DNA of 63,081 bases from a virus. The DNA is taken from the IMG/VR virus record IMGVR_UViG_3300011116_000165, positions 1 through 63,081 of that record. One strand, 5' to 3'. Position numbers and translations under genes: made by a program. The notes under the pieces were generated by a model that saw only the letters and a program-made list of their open reading frames with translations, did not search any database and had not been told where the DNA came from. Shown here piece after piece: positions 4,617-45,297 of this stretch; within the stretch, counting starts at the first letter, position 1, and every line of letters begins with the position of its first letter.

Positions 4617-7600
4617 ATGGCGCTCCAAACAGCTACCAATCCCCAGACGGGGGAAAGTGTTGCCTTGGTTAACGGTAATTGGCAGCCAATTGCACAGACA
4701 GCTACGAACCCCCAAACAGGTGAACGTGTTGGACTGATTGGCAACGAGTGGATACCTCTCCCCGGCGCTGCTCCCAAGCCTGTTACGCCGACTGCAAAGC
4801 CTGCGTCTGATGATTTTGACTTTGGTTCTCCAATGGGAACTGGTGCAGAAGAGATCATGGCGCAAGCCAATAAACCAAAAAAAGTTTATACGGGTAGTGT
4901 GTTTGATACGCAGCCGTTTAACCCCCCTGCCAACCCCCCATTTAACCCAGTAGAAGCACAAGCAGTACCCGAGCGCCGGGTTCAAGAAATGCGGGCAACC
5001 CCCAAAAGTGTGTTTGAGCGGTCGGCACTAAAGGCTGCTGGGGACACTACGATTGGTATTTTGCAAGGCATGGTGTCAATACCAAAAAGCATTGTAGATA
5101 ACATCCCGTTCGACAACCCCCTATCGCAGTTCTACAAAGATGCGTATAAAGCCGGGGAAGAATCAAAGTCGGGGTATTTGCGTTCTAAAAATGTAGAGCG
5201 CAGCGCCAACTTAGAAAACATACGTAAAAACCAAGGGGAGTTAGCGGCTACCCGCGCTTCTTTTAACACTATGTTTAGCCCTACGGGCGCGGATATTGTT
5301 GCCCAAGGCGCTGGGTCTTTAGTCCCGCTTATGGGCCTAAGCGTGCTTGATTTTGGCGCTAAGTCAATGACGGCAATGAACGTATTGGCAAATGCTGGCG
5401 ATGCGGCTCAGCAAACTGCGGCAAAGATGGCAGACCTAAGCCCTGAACAGTGGAGCAATAGTGCTGCGTACCAAGCATTACGTGAGAAAGGGCTAGACCA
5501 CAAAGACGCAGTGCGTATGCTCGCACCGTTGTATGCACTGCCTGCCCAAGTTGTTGCCGGTATTACTGGGAAAATTTCTGGGTCTACTGGTTTAGAAAAA
5601 GCTTTGGTCAAAGGGGGAGCAAAAACAGCCCGTGCCCGTGCTGGCCGAGCCGGAGCCGAACTTTTGGGCGAAGAGTTTGAAAGCCTTGCCCCCGAACTTA
5701 CCGGGAATGTCACTCAACGTCTGTTGGACGACAAAGCCTCCTTGCTTGATGGGCTTGGGCAGACTGCGGTAGAAACTCTTTTTGGGACATTGCCCGGAGC
5801 AGGATTAGCGGCGGCGGCGAGTAAGGGACAAGGTAAACAAACAGCCGAAGCACCCGCAACCCCTAGCGCACCCCCCGTTGCGCAAACTGAAGCCCCAGTT
5901 GCGCCTACGCCCCCGGAAACACCCGCACCCCCTAGCGCACCCCCCGTTGCGCCGCCCGCACCACCCGTTGCGCCGCCCGCACCCCCCGTTGCACCACCCA
6001 CTGCCCTCTCTGAAGTTAAAGTAGATGAAGCAGCGGCGGCTAGACGCGACCGTATCAATGCAGCTACTGAGCAGCTTGAGCAAATGGGTATCCCTACGGA
6101 CAACGCTAAAGGGATTGCTACTCGGCAAGTAGACGCTGCACTTACGGCTGAGGCAAAGACTGCCGCAATCAAAATACCGGAAGGCCGTGTAGAAGAAATT
6201 ACACAGGACTTGATTTCTGCTGGGGTAGCACCACAACAAGCAGCTATTGATGCAAAAAACCTAGCACAGGCGGAAGCAGAAGCCGATGCTAAAGCAGAAA
6301 CAGAAGGAGCCCAAGATGTTACAAGACCTAACGCGGAGCCAGATAGAGCAGGCGTTCCAGTGGCTGGAGAAGCCGCCCCCGCTCCAAGCACCACCGGAGA
6401 ACCTACAGCAGTTGAACGAGATGGAGTGGTTCCTGCTGAGCAGAATGTTGGAGAACCTGTTGCAGGAGAAATCGTTAAGCCGACTACAGTAGCAGCGGAA
6501 GAAAAAAGCCGCGAACTGCACGATAAAGCAAGTAGCCTTATTAAAGCAAAAGCAAGCCAAGAAGAAATTAGTGCTGCTATTGAAGAAGCTACAGCCTTTG
6601 ATGCTGAAAACAAAGTTGGACTTTCCGTTCCTCTTGAGTCTGCCGCAAAAGCTGCCCCTACCGAAATTACCACTAAAACAGAAGGAACCCCAAGTGCCAC
6701 TGAAACCATTGAAACCCAGCAAACAGAAACGCAAGGACAAGAAGCACCAGCAGCCGCAGGAGTAGCTCCAGCCAAGCGCGGACGCCCAGCAGTCCAGCAA
6801 ACTCACGTTGTTGCAGCAAACCCAGAGGGTGGGTTTAATCACGTTTCTAGTGGTGAAGTAGTTGCGACCTACGCAAATAAGAAGCAAGCGACTGCGGCAG
6901 TTGATTTGGCCAAGGCACAGGATAAGGGCGATGCCGCGCTTATCGCCAAGAACCAAACTAGGTTAGATGCAGCATTGGCTTCGCAGGGGCGTGGCCGACC
7001 AGCAGGCACTAAGACTGAGGGTGGGACTAAGAGAATTACCGCAACGGTAAAAGCAGACCTTGCAGATTTAGATTCGGCACTTGAAACTTACAACTCCCCT
7101 GATTCGAGCGATAAAAAAGTTAGGGAATCGGCGGAGTACATATACGAAGTTGCCAATGACGTGGGTGAATCCGATGTAGTGCGTAACCACGCGCAACAAA
7201 TGATAGACGATCAGATCGCCGAGGAACATATACCCAGCGGGGCTAAGCCCAGCGCGTCAACGGCAAAGATTAAAGCTGCTTTGGCTGCTACTGGTAAGCG
7301 TGCGCTACCGTCTAAATTCACCAATGCACCAGCAAATACTGATTTTGGTAAAGTAACCAATGCTTCTGAAGCGGTGGGGCTTGTCGTTAAAACAGGCACG
7401 TTGTTCCAAAAGTTTGTTGCCCAGCGTTTGCGGAGTAGCGTAGTCGGCATAAAGTTTGTAGTGTTGGAGAAAGGGGACGCTATCCCCGATGAAATGGATA
7501 ACGCTCGTGGTTTGTTTGAGTACAACCCCGGTACCAACAAACATGTTATCTATGTTCGCGGTGCAAGTTTTGGCGATATGCAGGGCATCAACAATGTCAC

Positions 7601-18456: not shown

Positions 18457-18641
18457 TTTGCTCGTTCCTTCATGTCGTTGATAGCGTGGAGCATCAGCTT
18501 GGTCTGCACTATGGCTTCCAGCGTTTGCTCAGCAGCCTCGTCATACATATTGGCTAGCATAAACAGGTGCGCATCCTTTAGCGCCTTCTCCGCCATCATC
18601 GCGGGAAACGCATAATCAACAATCGCCGTAACTTTTTCCAT
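18453..18641 (-). CDS. Small helical protein, unknown function
   Basis: 62 aa from the ATG at 18641, which has GAGG 6 nt upstream; a GTG four codons earlier is less well placed. Helical, Met/Ala-rich (MEKVTAIVDYAFPAMMAEKAL). It overlaps the polymerase gene by 26 bp and the Cas4-like gene by 4 bp, so it is translated as part of the same operon. Confidence 0.6.
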   Translation of the reverse strand: MEKVTAIVDYAFPAMMAEKALKDAHLFMLANMYDEAAEQTLEAIVQTKLMLHAINDMKERAK

Positions 18642-20433
18642 ATCCAGCCTCACAATTTAAAGGTAAATCCAACGCCCATTTGGGGCGTAATCTCATGCAC
18701 AACTCTACGTACTCCTTGGCCGTTTCAACTTCGGCTTCGGGAACAACGATAGCAATTGCATCATGCACCGTCATGACCACTCGGTATTTCTTAGCGATCA
18801 TAAGCATCTGCTCACCGATCACAATCCGCGCAAGGGCTTGGCACATGTTCTCAATTACCTTGCCGCCGTAGATTCGGTTCGGTATTATGGCCTTGCCCTT
18901 CTTTGTATCGTAAACGATCTCGGCTTTGCCATCCTGCCCCTCATGCACTCTTAGGTTGGGGTAGCGTAGGTACAAGCCATTGGGTAGCCGTATACCGCCT
19001 GTGCCTTGTACCTCTAGTGCGCCATCCCGTCCAAATGTTGTCTGCTGGTTGCTTAAGATAGCTTTGAGGGCTGAGGCGGCAGACTTCCACAACTCTGTAA
19101 TCCTTGGGTAAGTTCTGCGGTAGGTATCAATGACGTGCTGGGCTGCGTCCAACTCAAACTCGACCCCAAAGTTTTTAAGCTGCGCTTTAAATTTGGCAGC
19201 ACCCATACCGTAACCACACCCAAGAATCGTAGTCTTACCCACAAATCGCTCATCCTTGGTAATGTCGCTCTCTGCTTTGTTGTAGATAGCTGAAGCCATG
19301 ATCTTGTATACGTCATCGCCCCGATCAAACGCAGCTACCAAGTCATCCTGCCCAGCCAACCAAGCCAACGTACGTGCTTCAATCTGCGAGGAGTCTGAGT
19401 CAATCATTACGTACCCATTGGGCGCAACGATGCAGGACTTAAGAATGGACTTGCGCGGCAGGTTCTGAAGGTTCAGCTTATCGTCGCCACCCCAGCGTCC
19501 AGTATGCGCAGCGTAATACCGTAGGGGTACAGGCAGTGCACCGCGGTAAGCAATACCGATAAACCTCTCTGTCCGCGTCTCTTCGATCGTTGACTTGGTT
19601 CCCAACCTAGCAGCCACTAACGCCTGTACTGCGGGGTCACTATGCTCTAGCAACGCCTTAAACTCTTCGTCCGTCTTAGAGAATGCGTAAGTTTGTTTAC
19701 CGTTGGCGGGGCTAACTTTCATCGGGGGCTCTACGCCCATCGCTCTGAGCAAGTCGGCGAACTTGGGGTTGCTCATCAAGTCGTCTTTGTTGTACGTACT
19801 AAGTATGCGCTTTTTGTTATCCTGCACATCAAGCAAATAGGTTTTCAGCTTCCCAACGTCCAGCCGCAGTACAGGCTCCGTAAACATCTTGACCGTCAGA
19901 TCAATGAGTCGCAACTCAGTCGGCGGGAAGTCCGTAGCCATCGCTTGAAAAAGGGCGTATGTGATAGCCACATCGTTCTTGCAGTACTCGCCATACCTTT
20001 GCAGTTGCTCGGGGCTGAAGTCCTTGCGGCGTAGGCCCAACGCATTTTCAACTTCGGTTCCCTTTTCGCCGATACCATAGTGGTTTGCTAGGACTTTAAG
20101 GCTGCCCCCTACTTCAGTACCGTGTAAGGCTCGGCCCATCGACAGAGTATCAAGCCAACCCTTGGGGCTGAGTCCGTATACCCAAGACAAAATTGCACCG
20201 TCAAACGGAGCGTTGTGCGCAAGGGCGAGGGAATTCCCCCAATCAAACTGAGCAAGGAACTGGTGCATGGCAGCAGCATCGCCGCTAAACCAAACTGGCT
20301 CTCCGTCGTTGATCTGCACCGACACGCCGATCGTTTCAAACTGCGAGCTACGAATGTATTCCTCAGTGGTAACTTTTGTTAGGCTGAACTCACGCGAATA
20401 AAAGGTCTCAAAGTCGATCGTGAGGATATTCAC
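18616..20433 (-). CDS. Family A DNA polymerase with 3'-5' exonuclease, Leu762 type
   Basis: 605 aa, replicative polymerase. The N-terminal DEDD exonuclease shows D7/E9 (IDFET), D78 (HNAPFDGA) and D154 (KNDVAITYA). Polymerase motif A: DSDSSQIEARTLAW (about 345-358). Motif B: R396-xxx-K400-xxx-L404-xxx-Y408-G. Motif C: TVHDAI (about 555-560), where the usual VHDE has Ala for Glu. L404 aligns with E. coli Phe762; Leu there is known in many viral PolA proteins and has been linked to slower, less strictly lytic replication. No 5'-3' exonuclease domain. Confidence 0.95.
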   Translation of the reverse strand: MNILTIDFETFYSREFSLTKVTTEEYIRSSQFETIGVSVQINDGEPVWFSGDAAAMHQFLAQFDWGNSLALAHNAPFDGAILSWVYGLSPKGWLDTLSMGRALHGTEVGGSLKVLANHYGIGEKGTEVENALGLRRKDFSPEQLQRYGEYCKNDVAITYALFQAMATDFPPTELRLIDLTVKMFTEPVLRLDVGKLKTYLLDVQDNKKRILSTYNKDDLMSNPKFADLLRAMGVEPPMKVSPANGKQTYAFSKTDEEFKALLEHSDPAVQALVAARLGTKSTIEETRTERFIGIAYRGALPVPLRYYAAHTGRWGGDDKLNLQNLPRKSILKSCIVAPNGYVMIDSDSSQIEARTLAWLAGQDDLVAAFDRGDDVYKIMASAIYNKAESDITKDERFVGKTTILGCGYGMGAAKFKAQLKNFGVEFELDAAQHVIDTYRRTYPRITELWKSAASALKAILSNQQTTFGRDGALEVQGTGGIRLPNGLYLRYPNLRVHEGQDGKAEIVYDTKKGKAIIPNRIYGGKVIENMCQALARIVIGEQMLMIAKKYRVVMTVHDAIAIVVPEAEVETAKEYVELCMRLRPKWALDLPLNCEAGYGKSYGDC

Positions 20434-20795
20434 TTGAAAAACCCCGACAGTTGGGTTGACACCTTGTTGTTCTCGCTGCTGATATTGACGGAATCCACAA
20501 GGGCGGCGTGTGGGTTAATGCCAGCAATAGCAGTGGCATATCGGCCTGACGCTTTTATCTTTACGGTGTTCTCCATCTCTTCGGTAAGCAACTCCTTGAA
20601 CACCATAGAGTCGAACTCCTTGCGCCGCACTGCCTTCAACGCCTCGTGCAACGCGCCCTTCTCGGGCTCGGTCAGTACCTCACGGAAGTTAGGCTTAAAC
20701 ATAAAATTCCACTTCGGTGCATCCCCAAAAAACTCTTCGGGGTTTGATTCCATCCGTGCTACTAACGTACGCACTCCATCACTAAATTGGCTCAT
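20430..20795 (-). CDS. Polymerase-operon protein, unknown function
   Basis: 121 aa, overlapping the polymerase start by 4 bp. Contains FFGDAPKWNFMFKPNF and a Lys/Glu-rich middle; the C-terminus KVSTQLSGFFK ends in an aromatic tail. No domain recognised. Position suggests a replication or recombination accessory role. Confidence 0.6.
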   Translation of the reverse strand: MSQFSDGVRTLVARMESNPEEFFGDAPKWNFMFKPNFREVLTEPEKGALHEALKAVRRKEFDSMVFKELLTEEMENTVKIKASGRYATAIAGINPHAALVDSVNISSENNKVSTQLSGFFK

Positions 20796-21031
20796 TTCGG
20801 TTCCTCCAGTAGTTTCATCATTCCAATTGCGGTGTGCTTGTCCAGCCCTTTGGCTAGGGTCGTTGAATGCCTGCGCTGCAACTCAATCGAATACTCATTC
20901 CTGTATATTGAGTACTTGCCGTACCTAAACTTCATCACATACCACATACCAGCCTTTTCGTACTCAATACCAAACAGTTTGTTAAGCCCCGGTAACAATT
21001 CTTTGAGTAGGTCAGCACGGCTAATTGCCAT
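20792..21031 (-). CDS. Small early protein with major-capsid-like N-terminus
   Basis: 79 aa; ATG at 21031 chosen (AAGGTGA 6 nt upstream) over a GTG three codons earlier. The first 24 residues match the N-terminus of the major capsid protein (41631) at 21 of 24 positions (shared LLKELLPGLN), while the DNA agrees at only about 69%, so the protein sequence is conserved rather than freshly copied. After residue 24 the proteins diverge completely; the tail is basic with KFRYGKYSIYRNEYSI. Encoded with replication genes on the opposite strand from the capsid. Function unknown; a capsid-assembly or GroEL-binding decoy is possible. Confidence 0.75.
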   Translation of the reverse strand: MAISRADLLKELLPGLNKLFGIEYEKAGMWYVMKFRYGKYSIYRNEYSIELQRRHSTTLAKGLDKHTAIGMMKLLEEPK

Positions 21032-21323
21032 TGCACTCACCTTCTATCCAACCCTTCAAGTCATCTATGTTTGTTTCGTAAATGACCGCAGTTAAACCAC
21101 CGGCTTCTCGGATAGCTTTAAGGTTTTTCTCTTGCAGCGCGGTAGTTGTACCCTTCCCTGCCTTAGCTTCAATAGCCAAAAACTTACCGTTCACGCAGCA
21201 AAGGAAATCGGGGACGCCACTGTTGCCGTAGCCAGTACCAATCGGCATGGCGTAGTAAACGTTGTGGGCTTTGAGGATGGCCTTAATCTTTGCTTTGACC
21301 TTGGCCTCGGGTGTTTGTGCCAT
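21021..21323 (-). CDS. VRR-NUC nuclease
   Basis: 100 aa, a full single-domain VRR-NUC (PD-(D/E)XK superfamily). Visible active site: D39 in GVPDF, E52-x-K54 in AIEAKAG, Q64 in ALQEKN. Stand-alone phage members cut branched DNA such as Holliday junctions. GGAG lies 7 nt before the ATG. First gene after the promoter at 21.36 kb, so it leads the polymerase operon. Confidence 0.9.
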   Translation of the reverse strand: MAQTPEAKVKAKIKAILKAHNVYYAMPIGTGYGNSGVPDFLCCVNGKFLAIEAKAGKGTTTALQEKNLKAIREAGGLTAVIYETNIDDLKGWIEGECNGN

Positions 21324-21350: not shown

Positions 21351-21378
21351 AGTATAACACAGTGTTTTACTCTGTCAA
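21351..21378 (-). promoter_or_regulatory. Sigma70 promoter with dyad operator, twin of 15.78 kb
   Basis: Minus strand TTGACA (21378-21373), 16 bp, TATACT (21356-21351). The spacer has an imperfect dyad ACAGTGT-TTT-ACTCTGT. Shares 22 of 27 bases with the promoter at 15775-15802. Drives the VRR-NUC, capsid-like, polymerase and nuclease genes. Confidence 0.8.
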
Positions 21379-21390
21379 GGGTACAGGCGT

Positions 21391-21413
21391 AAAAAAGCCA
21401 CCCGAAGGTGGCT
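21391..21413 (-). terminator. Rho-independent terminator
   Basis: Minus-strand hairpin AGCCACC-TTCG-GGTGGCT (21413-21396) followed by TTTTT. A 7-bp perfect stem with a UUCG tetraloop. It closes the small-gene operon ending at 21441 and precedes the next promoter by about 12 bp. Confidence 0.9.
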
Positions 21414-21440: not shown

Positions 21441-21881
21441 TCACTTGAGCATACTGATCTCTCGCGTCAGATACCACTGTGCCTTGCGCAAGTCCTCCAG
21501 CTTGTTGCCTTTGTGGTCGGCGCGGGTCAGATACTTGACTACGTTGCCAAGGTTGTACCCCAGCTTCTTAGCCTCAATGAAGTCGATGGTCTCGATACCA
21601 CCTACCTTGTAATGGGCAGGGTGATTGACGTTATCGGGGGCGTTCACCGTATCGTTACTTGTGATGATTGCCAGCGTCTTCCACTTGTTCGCTGCTACCT
21701 TAGCTGACTTGCGTGGTACACGTGGGATGCCCTTCTTAGCTTTCTTGTCGTACGAAAGGGTTGCGTATACGTTCCTCAACGTAACACCCTCCAACGCCGC
21801 CGCAATATCATTTGGCTTAGCCTTGGGATGCTGCTTAACGTACGCACGGATTTTTGCTGCTGCTGTCTTAGTTTGTTTCAT
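21441..21881 (-). CDS. HTH-like domain fused to DUF3310
   Basis: 146 aa from the ATG at 21881 (GGAG 6 nt upstream). The N-terminal 50 residues look like a winged or plain HTH (KAKPNDIAAALEGVTLRNVYATL). A basic linker follows, then a C-terminal DUF3310 domain (NHPAHYKVGGIETIDFIEAK, then YLTRADHKGNKLEDLRKAQWYL). DUF3310 also occurs in the T7 gene 1.7 nucleotide kinase, but most members have no known activity. Last gene of its operon. Confidence 0.75.
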   Translation of the reverse strand: MKQTKTAAAKIRAYVKQHPKAKPNDIAAALEGVTLRNVYATLSYDKKAKKGIPRVPRKSAKVAANKWKTLAIITSNDTVNAPDNVNHPAHYKVGGIETIDFIEAKKLGYNLGNVVKYLTRADHKGNKLEDLRKAQWYLTREISMLK

Positions 21882-22083
21882 TTTTAACTCCAGTTTGGTT
21901 AGTAACATACTCAGTAAGAATTTCTCTCATCTTGGCTTGCTTTGTATACGCAAAGTTAGTGTTGAAGTAATCCATCACCTCCTTTGTTAGACGCAGGCTC
22001 GTATTGAAAAGCGCGGGTTTCTTACCCAATCCCCGCCCTTTTCGTTTTTTCTCCGGTTTTAAAAACTCAATCCCTGTTGTCAT
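21868..22083 (-). CDS. Ribbon-helix-helix-like protein (BrnA-antitoxin-like fold)
   Basis: 71 aa. A basic N-terminus is followed by LFNTSLRLTKEVMDYFNTNF and KMREILTEYV, the beta-strand plus two helices of RHH DNA-binding proteins; the spacing resembles BrnA-type antitoxins. No partner toxin is adjacent, so a regulator is more likely. Candidate binder of the nearby palindromes. Overlaps both neighbours. Confidence 0.55.
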   Translation of the reverse strand: MTTGIEFLKPEKKRKGRGLGKKPALFNTSLRLTKEVMDYFNTNFAYTKQAKMREILTEYVTNQTGVKNETN

Positions 22084-38708: not shown

Positions 38709-38908
38709 TATTGAACGATTACAAAGTATTGGCCTATATAGCCAAGGAAATGGGCAGGCTCCGTTCGGAGCAAGAAGCCTTTGTAACCAGTGGTAGAGCG
38801 GGGGACTTCTCCGACTACCGCCACATCTGCGGGGTAATCCGAGGTCTAAACCTTGCAGAAGACATCATTAATGAACTCGTGCAAAAAATGGAGAAGTCTG
38901 ATGACTGA
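38705..38908 (+). CDS. Small helical protein after portal
   Basis: 67 aa, GAAAGGA just before the ATG, ATGA overlap with the portal stop. RLRSEQEAFVTSGRAGDFSDY and NLAEDIINELVQKM are helical; such small proteins between portal and scaffold genes are common in related phages. Role unknown. Confidence 0.7.
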   Translation: MILNDYKVLAYIAKEMGRLRSEQEAFVTSGRAGDFSDYRHICGVIRGLNLAEDIINELVQKMEKSDD

Positions 38909-39311
38909 ATTTGATACCGCTGCTGTAGACCTATCTGGCATTTTGAATAAACCTGCCGAAGAAAAAGCCAAGCAGTTGCCTGAACCTAAGACGTTCCACA
39001 TGCTCGCTGTAGTGCCCGAAGCTATGGAAGAGTATGCCGAGAGCGAACTGGGGATTCTTAAATCCGCGCAGTCTATGCACTACGAAGAAGTGCTGACTCC
39101 CGTGCTGTTTGTGGTCAAACTTGGCCCAGATTGTTACAAAGACGCAACACGGTTCCCCAGTGGGCCGTCGTGCAAGGAAGGTGATTTCATCATCGTCCGA
39201 CCCAATTCAGGCACCCGTCTGAAGATTCATGGCCGTGAATTCCGCATCATTAATGATGATTCGGTTGAAGCTGTTGTGGAAGACCCGCGTGGCATCACCC
39301 GCGCTGCTTAA
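38901..39311 (+). CDS. GroES-like co-chaperonin
   Basis: 136 aa from the ATG that overlaps the previous stop. The C-terminal two thirds match Cpn10: VLFVVKLGPDCY, then RFPSGPSCKEGDFIIVRP, SGTRLKIHGREFRIIND and DSVEAVVEDPRG. The segment around residues 55-70 (ESELGILKSAQSMHYEEV) would be the mobile loop that docks to host GroEL. Placed just before scaffold and capsid genes, as for T4 gp31-type helpers, so capsid folding is the likely client. Confidence 0.8.
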   Translation: MTEFDTAAVDLSGILNKPAEEKAKQLPEPKTFHMLAVVPEAMEEYAESELGILKSAQSMHYEEVLTPVLFVVKLGPDCYKDATRFPSGPSCKEGDFIIVRPNSGTRLKIHGREFRIINDDSVEAVVEDPRGITRAA

Positions 39312-39321
39312 GGAGTAAATC

Positions 39322-40302
39322 ATGGCAGATGGATATAAGTTCCCTCACGAGCTTGAGGAAGAAAATAAGGGTAAACCCGAAGATGACGAAGGGTTTGAGA
39401 TAGAAATTGAGGACGATACCCCGGCTCCTGACCGAGGTCGTAAGGCTGATCCCAAGCCTCCAGAAGACCCAACGGATGACGAATTATCGTCCTACGATGA
39501 GAAAGTACAGGCACGGATTAAGAAATTTACCCGTGGTTACCACGACGAACGTAGGGCTAAGGAAGAGGCTTTGCGGGAGCGGGAAGCGGCTGAAAACCTA
39601 ACAAAACAGCTTTGGCAGCAGAATCGCGCCCTCCAGCAACAGGTCGAATTAGGGTCTCGCGCCTATATTGAGCAGTCAAAAACCTCTGCCGAGATGGAAT
39701 TTGACAAGGCCAAGAAGGAATATAAAGAGGCTTATGAGTCCGGCGACTCCGACGCGGTGGTGGAAGCACAGGCAAAAATAGCTCGTGCCACACTAAATAT
39801 GGACAAAGTTAGTAATTTTAGGCCTATACAAACGGACGAAAATGAAGTACAAACGCCACAACGTAATACAAATCAGGTTCCTGTTACCCAGCGAGATGCA
39901 AGTTGGCAGCAGGAAAATACATGGTTTGGCACCGACGAAGAGATGACTGCTGCGGCTCTTGGGTTACACCAAAAGCTCGTCAAACAACGTGGTGCTAACT
40001 TTGTAGGCACAAATGAGTATTACAAACAAGTGGACGCTACAATGCGTAAACGATTCTCCGATTACTTTGAAGGTGACGGAAGCTATGAAGATGATGCGAC
40101 TTCTAAACAGGCATCAGAACCGGCAGAGGAAGAAACTCCCCGCCGTGCAACAAAACCGTCTACGGTAGTAGCTCCTGCTGCACGTAGTACACCGCCTAAT
40201 CGTATTCGATTGAAGGCATCCGAAGCAGCGATCGCTCGCCGTCTTGGGGTTCCCTTGGAAGAATATGCTAAACAGGTTGCTCAACTGAAGAGAGGTAATT
40301 GA
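39322..40302 (+). CDS. Scaffolding protein, probable
   Basis: 326 aa, very acidic N-terminus (EEENKGKPEDDEGFEIEIED), then a long Arg/Glu coiled coil (about 70-170), and a basic C-terminus (RIRLKASEAAIARRLGVP). This charge layout and the place between portal and capsid genes fit a capsid scaffold. No protease domain is visible, so it is probably released rather than cut. Confidence 0.75.
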   Translation: MADGYKFPHELEEENKGKPEDDEGFEIEIEDDTPAPDRGRKADPKPPEDPTDDELSSYDEKVQARIKKFTRGYHDERRAKEEALREREAAENLTKQLWQQNRALQQQVELGSRAYIEQSKTSAEMEFDKAKKEYKEAYESGDSDAVVEAQAKIARATLNMDKVSNFRPIQTDENEVQTPQRNTNQVPVTQRDASWQQENTWFGTDEEMTAAALGLHQKLVKQRGANFVGTNEYYKQVDATMRKRFSDYFEGDGSYEDDATSKQASEPAEEETPRRATKPSTVVAPAARSTPPNRIRLKASEAAIARRLGVPLEEYAKQVAQLKRGN

Positions 40303-41630: not shown

Positions 41631-42542
41631 ATGGCTATTTCACGCGCACAGCTACTTAAAGAGTTGCTCCCCGGACTCAATGCCTTGTTTGGTATGGAGT
41701 ATTCCCGCTACGGCGAAGAGCACAAGGAAATCTACGAGACTGAAACCTCTGAGCGTTCCTTTGAAGAAGAGACAAAACTGTCTGGTTTCTCTGCTGCACC
41801 TGTTAAGAACGAGGGCTCTGCCATCGCTTACGACAATGCACAGGAAGCATGGACAACTCGTTACAACCACGAAACCATTGCCCTTGGCTTCTCAATCACC
41901 GAAGAGGCGATTGAAGATAACCTGTACGACAGCTTGTCTGCTCGTTACACCAAGTCTTTGGCTCGTGCTATGGCATACACCAAGCAGGTTAAAGCTGCTG
42001 CTGTTATCAACAACGGTTTCTCGGCGGCTTATGTCGGCGGTGACGGTGTTGCTCTATTCAGCACTGCCCACCCCCTGATTTCTGGTGGTGTTAATAGCAA
42101 CCGTCCGTCTACTGCCGCTGACCTGAACGAGACTTCCTTGGAAGCCGCCGTTATCCAGATCGCTGCTTGGACAGACGAGCGTGGTCTTCTGATCGCTGCT
42201 AAGCCCAAGAAGTTGATTGTTCCTCCTGCCCTGCAATTCGTTGCTACCCGTCTGTTGGAAACCAGCCTCCGCGTTGGTACTACCGACAACGATATCAATG
42301 CGTTGAAGAACAACGGTTCGATCCCAGAAGGCTACACCATTAATCACTACCTGACCGACACAAACGGCTGGTATCTGACTACTGATGTGCCTAACGGTCT
42401 GAAGCACTTTGTCCGCTCTCCTCTGGAGAACAAGATGGACGGTGACTTCGATACCGGCAACGTCCGCTACAAGGCCCGCGAGCGTTATTCGTTCGGCTGG
42501 TCTGACCCACTGGGAATCTTCGGATCGCCCGGTTCGTCCTAA
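41631..42542 (+). CDS. Major capsid protein (Mu gpT-like)
   Basis: 303 aa, GGAG upstream. ETIALGFSITEEAIEDNLY, NNGFSAAYVGGDGVALFS and TAHPLISGG match Mu gpT-type capsid proteins. The first 24 residues reappear in an early 79-aa protein at 20792. Followed by a strong terminator, so this operon ends here. Confidence 0.9.
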   Translation: MAISRAQLLKELLPGLNALFGMEYSRYGEEHKEIYETETSERSFEEETKLSGFSAAPVKNEGSAIAYDNAQEAWTTRYNHETIALGFSITEEAIEDNLYDSLSARYTKSLARAMAYTKQVKAAAVINNGFSAAYVGGDGVALFSTAHPLISGGVNSNRPSTAADLNETSLEAAVIQIAAWTDERGLLIAAKPKKLIVPPALQFVATRLLETSLRVGTTDNDINALKNNGSIPEGYTINHYLTDTNGWYLTTDVPNGLKHFVRSPLENKMDGDFDTGNVRYKARERYSFGWSDPLGIFGSPGSS

Positions 42543-44663: not shown

Positions 44664-45075
44664 CAAAAAGCAGCACAACTTTATGGCTGCGGTAGCAAAC
44701 AACCCCAGTTTTGCAAGCAAGGCTGGCGTACCCCAATCTGTCGGTGCCGATTTTGAAGCGGCGGATAAAGGCTTGAAGTTTGGTAAAGGATCGTCTAAGA
44801 CCCGTGCTGATCTTCAGAAAGTTAACAACCCAAAGACTTTGCACGGCAAAGCATCTATCATGAAAAAAGGTGGTACTACTATGGCTACAAAGAAAATGAA
44901 CCCATTTGCTAAATTTGAGGCGTCTGCCAAAGACAAAGCAATGGACAAAAAGGCAATGGGTATGAAGAAAATGGCTTCTGGTGGCTCTGCCTCTTCCCGC
45001 GCTGACGGTGTTGCTACAAAAGGCAAGACCAAGGGTACATTTGTGAAGATGAACAAGGGCGGCATGTCCTGCTAA
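44650..45075 (+). CDS. DUF3008-like module fused to RADG-tail module
   Basis: 141 aa, GTG start within the end of the previous gene. The N-terminal SKKQHNFMAAVANNPSFASK and GADFEAADKG match small DUF3008-type phage proteins. A second in-frame ATG at 44881, preceded by AAGGTGG, starts MATKKMNPFAKFEASAKDKA and could yield a separate product. The end is KKMASGGSASSRADGV. Confidence 0.7.
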   Translation: MPSVSKKQHNFMAAVANNPSFASKAGVPQSVGADFEAADKGLKFGKGSSKTRADLQKVNNPKTLHGKASIMKKGGTTMATKKMNPFAKFEASAKDKAMDKKAMGMKKMASGGSASSRADGVATKGKTKGTFVKMNKGGMSC

Positions 45076-45084
45076 GGATCAATC

Positions 45085-45297
45085 ATGGCTGATTACAAGT
45101 ACCCCAAAGATGTTCCTGTGGACGAGCCGGTTAGCAAAAAACCTGCCCCTAAGCCAAAACCAAAGCCAAAAATGCCTATCTACAAGGACAGTGTTCCTGT
45201 GGATGAGCCGGTGGCAGCAATGGCTAAAGGTGGGTCTGCTTCCAGCCGTGCTGATGGCATTGCTCAACGGGGTAAAACCCGTGGAAAGATGTGCTAA
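45085..45297 (+). CDS. Pro/Lys-rich small protein with RADG tail
   Basis: 70 aa. Two DVPVDEPV / SVPVDEPV copies flank PAPKPKPKPK, then MAKGGSASSRADGIAQRG. Likely disordered. Shares its last 25 residues with the two preceding genes. Confidence 0.65.
   Translation: MADYKYPKDVPVDEPVSKKPAPKPKPKPKMPIYKDSVPVDEPVAAMAKGGSASSRADGIAQRGKTRGKMC

Follow-up and report, generated by a model that had tools for sequence, protein, structure and literature searches.

Gene content of the locus

The stretch of viral DNA analysed here, hereafter the window, is 63,081 nucleotides long and corresponds to IMG/VR record IMGVR_UViG_3300011116_000165. It contains a gene for a protein of 79 residues (79-aa protein), which begins with MAISRADLLKELLPGLNKLFGIEY and is encoded in a tight run of genes for a VRR-NUC-like endonuclease, the 79-aa protein, a protein of the "RMESNP" family and DNA polymerase A (PolA; Table 1). 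The stop codon of the endonuclease gene overlaps the ATG of the 79-aa gene, and the RMESNP gene overlaps the 79-aa gene by ATGA as well as the start of PolA. A sigma-70-like promoter, TTGACA-16-TATACT with an extended TG, is found upstream of the VRR-NUC gene, in a sequence whose promoter-like sites overall show no enrichment over shuffled sequence. The upstream limit of the unit is marked by a terminator-like hairpin followed by a T run. From its apparent co-transcription with VRR-NUC and PolA, and from the sigma-70-like promoter, we infer that the 79-aa gene is an early gene.

The major capsid protein (MCP) begins with MAISRAQLLKELLPGLNALFGMEY and is firmly identified by its matches to PHROG 371 and PF25209. 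Its gene lies in a block of genes on the strand opposite to that of the 79-aa gene, an arrangement that had been pointed out in the original prediction and is real. A GroES-like gene is located just upstream of the putative scaffold gene, a position that it also occupies in several cultured relatives. Small late proteins encoded downstream of the MCP gene, in the window and in many related loci, share a C-terminal motif of the SASSRADGIAQRGKTRGKM-C type although they are not otherwise related. It was detected in 66 frames from 37 loci, within 8 residues of the end in 57 of them and in none of the PolA loci, and looks like another shared terminal peptide.

Table 1. Positions of the genes, protein segments and signals of the window that are discussed in the text.
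Feature	Position	Strand	Basis or remarks
DNA polymerase A (PolA), last of the gene run	18616-20433	-	PF00476, E 6.8e-36
RMESNP early protein	20430-20795	-	Family with hypervariable tails
79-aa early protein: MCP-arm copy (N-terminal) and beta-beta-beta-alpha domain	20792-21031	-	
Compact beta-beta-beta-alpha domain, unrelated to MCP	20804-20947	-	AF2 model, relatives
Copy of the MCP N-arm, 24 codons	20960-21031	-	21/24 aa, 50/72 nt
Endonuclease/VRR-NUC-like, just upstream of the 79-aa gene	21021-21323	-	PHROG 93 endonuclease, E 2.5e-15; VRR_NUC below cut-off
Sigma-70-like promoter	21351-21378	-	11/12 consensus
Terminator-like hairpin and T run	21396-21413	-	
DUF3310 early protein	21441-21908	-	PF11753, E 3.1e-21
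GroES-like gene	38853-39311	+	PHROG 3188, E 1.1e-6
Putative scaffolding protein	39322-40302	+	Position and make-up; phrog_28737 (unknown function); between GroES-like gene and MCP block
C-terminal helix of putative scaffold	40192-40299	+	Copied on early L186, L184, L014; weakly L305
Major capsid protein (MCP)	41631-42542	+	PHROG 371, E 2e-23; PF25209, E 9.5e-16
MCP N-arm, the segment copied in the 79-aa gene	41631-41702	+	Also carried by other small early proteins
MCP residues 46-72, probable E-loop	41766-41846	+	Weak copies, RMESNP tails of L176, L172, L022, L014
MCP residues 93-128, probable spine helix	41907-42014	+	Copied in L134, L013, L018, L117, L205, L209
MCP residues 272-300, C-terminal strand	42444-42530	+	Copied in L182, L184, L175, L176, L235
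SASSRADGIAQRGKTRGKM-C type motif	44998-45033	+	
SASSRADGIAQRGKTRGKM-C type motif	45247-45282	+	

A capsid N-arm copy on a small early protein

The residue and base identities first reported between the start of the 79-aa protein and that of the MCP (Table 1) are both exact, and the match does stop after residue 24, with G28 alone agreeing among the next six positions. When the 79-aa protein was searched against its own 63-kb record, the MCP start was the only match (E = 2.5e-9). Selection at the protein level on two separate genes, as had been proposed, is borne out by the 24 shared codons, for which the NG86 method gave a saturated pS of 0.80 and a pN of 0.16. Likewise, the arm of the window and that of a related locus, L027, differ by a pN of 0.04 with pS saturated, in two proteins whose C-termini differ. 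Since synonymous change is saturated and pN is low in both comparisons, the arm copy is old and its peptide has been kept as protein. A recent DNA duplication is ruled out by the saturated synonymous sites.

Of eight distinct MCP arms, seven have Q at position 7 and seven have A at position 18. In the early proteins, position 7 is mostly E, D or Q and position 18 mostly K, E or D. This pattern suggests that the early arms form a lineage of their own rather than the product of repeated recopying, and that an exposed surface has been altered. As both positions consistently differ, the early arms may not bind in quite the same way as the MCP arm.

The AF2 model of the 79-aa protein (mean pLDDT 82.8) consists of a helix at residues 5-21, strands at 29-36, 39-48 and 53-63, and a second helix at 65-76. 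In this model, the N-terminal helix is tied by a flexible stretch to a confidently predicted beta-beta-beta-alpha domain. A fold search with this domain returned nothing at E<=0.001; its best matches were double-stranded-RNA-binding-domain-like folds with a TM score of only about 0.26, and were set aside. The protein is not a truncated or duplicated MCP either, since beyond the 24 matching residues the remainder is an unrelated domain and the HK97-fold core is absent. The best explanation is that of a two-part protein, in which a compact domain carries a maintained copy of the MCP N-arm as its N-terminal helix.

Relatives of the 79-aa protein

The concern that no relative keeps the gene is laid to rest by a scan of viral contigs, which found 28 related loci. 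Most of these are full-length relatives with the arm, while L022, L023 and L026 keep the domain and have no recognisable arm. In L027 and L028 the arm is attached to a different, charged tail, and in a third group (L117, L119, L120, L202, L203, L205-L209) to another short tail. All of these loci adjoin PolA and an exonuclease or endonuclease. The arm can also be found mid-chain in a 60-aa protein of L242, while in contig G018 it forms the C-terminal end of a frame of 120 residues. Near PolA it is joined to at least three unrelated C-termini, and given these varied settings the arm behaves as a portable peptide. As with capsid-targeting sequences, a short terminal peptide is common here to otherwise unrelated proteins. 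In locus L008 the 79-aa gene occurs twice, at 5119 (-) and 3001 (+); the two copies have diverged, and one of them sits within a longer 222-aa frame.

The relatives carrying copies are all uncultured viral contigs, and no cultured phage with the 79-aa gene was found. Among annotated phages, neither the 79-aa nor the RMESNP protein has a named homologue beyond one weak match over 35 residues to a Xanthomonas phage (E 6), and no homologue of either protein was found in bacterial and archaeal genomes.

Pieces of MCP and putative scaffold in other early genes

The copied arm is, on the evidence of profile comparisons, one member of a wider pattern of MCP and scaffold pieces in early genes. A search with an MCP profile, covering every frame of about 280 loci, revealed two further MCP segments in unrelated early proteins, namely the mid-protein helix (residues 93-128) and the C-terminal strand (residues 272-300). 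Individual cases are the helix in L117 (E 0.0077) and the strand in L182 (E 1.7e-5) and L235 (E 0.0099). Because the predicted MCP structure is poor (pLDDT 37.9), and because sequence and profile searches of solved structures returned no relative of the MCP, the spine helix, the E-loop and the scaffold are identified by order and position.

Pieces of the putative scaffold are found in similar surroundings. L186 encodes a 55-aa protein that starts with the scaffold C-terminal helix (E 1.5e-5). In L188, L014 and L012, scaffold pieces are located in the linker that precedes a DUF3310 domain, and the linker of the L188 protein (382-945, + strand) holds about 65 residues of the scaffold middle region (E 2e-15). 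Overall, 21 of 160 PolA loci contain at least one piece at E<0.05, which is a lower bound because many of these loci are short.

As a control, profiles of 39 late proteins of the window were compared with a dereplicated set of 17,442 frames from early regions. At E<0.001, 0.01, 0.1 and 1, partial matches to the MCP were found in 21, 24, 28 and 34 frames, and partial matches to the putative scaffold in 2, 2, 4 and 7 frames, respectively. Most of the MCP matches are to the N-arm, many of them from relatives of the 79-aa protein, and the other pieces are fewer. None of the remaining 37 late proteins had an early piece at E<0.01, which rules out a general sampling of late genes. For 37 of the 39 proteins, the MCP and the scaffold among them, the profile was also reversed. 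Neither the reversed MCP profile nor the reversed scaffold profile had a match at E<0.1, and the scaffold gave at most one weak match. Three runs with residue-shuffled frames gave 0, 0 and 1 matches for the MCP at E<0.1 and none for the scaffold. A chance resemblance or a generic amphipathic helix of low information content, on which the original prediction would have foundered, is ruled out by these reversed and shuffled controls. The sequence comparisons establish the copies, their specificity for MCP and scaffold, their age and their conservation as protein.

Members of the RMESNP family, which occur as one to three tandem copies, share a conserved head some 72 residues long but have hypervariable tails, and in relatives these tails carry MCP or scaffold pieces. 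The RMESNP tail of the window itself contains no significant MCP or scaffold piece. Among 67 distinct tails, nine scored above 4 bits and four above 10 bits with the MCP profile (0.19 and 0.00 for shuffled tails), and three scored above 10 bits with the scaffold profile (0.01 for shuffled tails). Reversed MCP and scaffold profiles gave 0 matches, and none of five other late profiles exceeded 6 bits. The E-loop-like matches are weak, at 4.0-7.0 bits, where shuffles predict about 0.2 tails above 4 bits, and point to a tendency only. One RMESNP paralogue type (for example in L182, L184, L159 and L161) has glutamine-rich tails with GLLGSIFGG-like ends.

Different pieces are also found at the same gene positions. 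Between the VRR-NUC and RMESNP genes, the window has the arm and its domain, while in L175 and L176 the C-terminal strand of the MCP precedes a domain that is probably related to the window domain (single profile comparison, P 3.6e-5, probability 72%). The slot between PolA and the exonuclease holds the scaffold C-terminal helix in L186, and the MCP arm is located just after the exonuclease in L027 and L209. Arm and mid-protein helix are found on neighbouring genes in L134, where they belong to a 79-aa relative and an RMESNP protein, and in L209, where they belong to an arm protein and the next ORF, with start and stop of the two genes overlapping as TAATG.

Possible roles of the copied pieces

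The procapsid of phage 80alpha has on its inner face a single palisade of helices, to which the scaffold contributes its C-terminal helix and the MCP its N-arm and spine helices; the N-arm helix touches that of the scaffold (PMC5744158). Contacts related to this interface are known for other phages (PMC12749128). The explanation that we favour, tentatively and at slightly less than even confidence, is that the copied pieces are docking peptides. They would dock at the MCP-scaffold interface inside the assembling procapsid, and the early proteins bearing them would be recruited to procapsids, probably into them, in the manner of T4 and P1 targeting sequences, with the difference that the targeting peptides would have been copied from the capsid machinery itself. 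Docking at this interface is favoured because three of the copied elements, two from the MCP (N-arm and mid-protein helix) and one from the scaffold (its C-terminus), correspond by name and order to parts of the 80alpha palisade. We infer both the binding partner and a preference for cargo recruitment over assembly regulation. Scaffold, portal and GroEL had been put forward as partners of the arm; scaffold is the most plausible, because the 80alpha N-arm contacts a scaffold helix and that same helix is copied in early proteins of relatives, whereas nothing points to portal or GroEL, the portal profile having no early copy at E<0.1. That this phage group systematically grafts its own capsid contact peptides onto replication-operon proteins, by which early DNA-handling proteins would be tethered to procapsids under assembly or loaded into them, with the peptides swapped at the same gene positions, is a broader proposal that we consider possible rather than probable. 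Docking sits less well with the relatives that lack the arm (L022, L023 and L026) and with the presence of pieces in just 21 of the 160 PolA loci. The C-terminal strand and E-loop pieces suit docking to scaffold less than do the three elements that correspond to the 80alpha palisade, and cargo, regulatory and decoy roles alike explain them poorly.

The peptides could instead compete with MCP or scaffold, thereby holding back premature assembly at the start of infection or poisoning the formation of capsids by co-infecting phages or satellites. Such competition has precedents at the same interface, since the 80alpha scaffold and CpmB of SaPI1 are competitors for the N-arm helix (PMC12749128), and Ccm of SaPIbov5 is a capsid-protein homologue that redirects assembly (PMC8569155). 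It would also fit copies that derive from both sides of one interface and genes that lie in the replication block, away from the structural genes. We nevertheless consider it unlikely, as a strong self-competitor would harm its own phage unless its timing or affinity were tuned, and several pieces on several early proteins exceed the needs of one inhibitor. A decoy role, in which free early capsid peptides would occupy a host capsid sensor before the real MCP appears, is distinctly unlikely. It leaves the scaffold copies unexplained, the known sites of escape from Thoeris are the E-loop and P-loop and not the N-arm, and early exposure of a sensed piece could itself trigger defence. In its favour, the genes are accessory and mosaic, and capsid sensing is established: Thoeris senses the MCP via these two loops (PMC12578639), and a capsid protein acts as the activator of CapRel (Zhang et al., 2022, cited in PMC12409349).

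Two further explanations dispense with capsid binding or with function. The early proteins might pair among themselves through borrowed capsid helices, which could be indicated by L134 and L209, where the arm and the mid-protein helix are carried by closely packed neighbouring genes in arrangements that are unrelated to each other. This is improbable, since most loci have a single piece and capsid-like sequence on both surfaces would be unneeded if the capsid were no partner. Recombination might also place pieces of late genes, without function, in tolerant termini or linkers of early genes. Protein-fragment shuffling is common in phages (PMC10684548), and the pieces are indeed located in termini, tails and linkers. 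Such capture should sample late genes broadly, which is at odds with the 37 proteins that left no early piece at E<0.01, and for the N-arm it is contradicted by saturated synonymous sites in a conserved protein, which mean long selection; we regard it as very improbable.

If the docking explanation is true, these phages would illustrate a route to tags that link replication-stage proteins with capsid assembly, made from the capsid's own interface peptides, and would offer ready-made peptides with which to learn what short segments suffice to load or block a procapsid. Mechanism aside, that the MCP and the putative scaffold alone among 39 late proteins leave maintained early pieces is an unexplained and testable regularity.

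Comparison with known systems

We found no description of such grafting among the open-licence papers listed for capsid-fragment mimicry and protein mosaicism. The T4 internal proteins are diverse, with a capsid-targeting sequence as their only common part (PMC3012670), and 30 residues of P1 DarB are enough for capsid entry (PMC9024508). The early proteins described here resemble T4 IPI-IPIII and P1 DarB in that small phage proteins with no other relationship share a short terminal peptide, which in T4 and P1 is sufficient for head entry (PMC3012670; PMC9024508). Unlike those of T4 and P1, the present peptides, as candidate targeting sequences, are copied from several different segments of MCP and scaffold, some are C-terminal or lie in linkers, and the genes belong to a replication operon. 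In T4 the head protease cuts the peptide, while no head protease was recognised here, a search of head-region proteins that covered part of the genes having returned no stand-alone protease.

The likeness to 80alpha lies in three copied elements that correspond by name and order to its palisade (PMC5744158), a correspondence that for this MCP derives from sequence order and a low-confidence model. In 80alpha these parts are found in the MCP and scaffold only, whereas here copies are also carried by early proteins. CpmB and Ccm of the SaPIs, being small proteins or homologues, likewise imitate or take the place of scaffold or capsid parts and act at the same interface (PMC12749128; PMC8569155). 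They originate from satellites that hijack a helper phage, whereas the copies described here, of 20-65 residues, belong to the phage's own replication operon.
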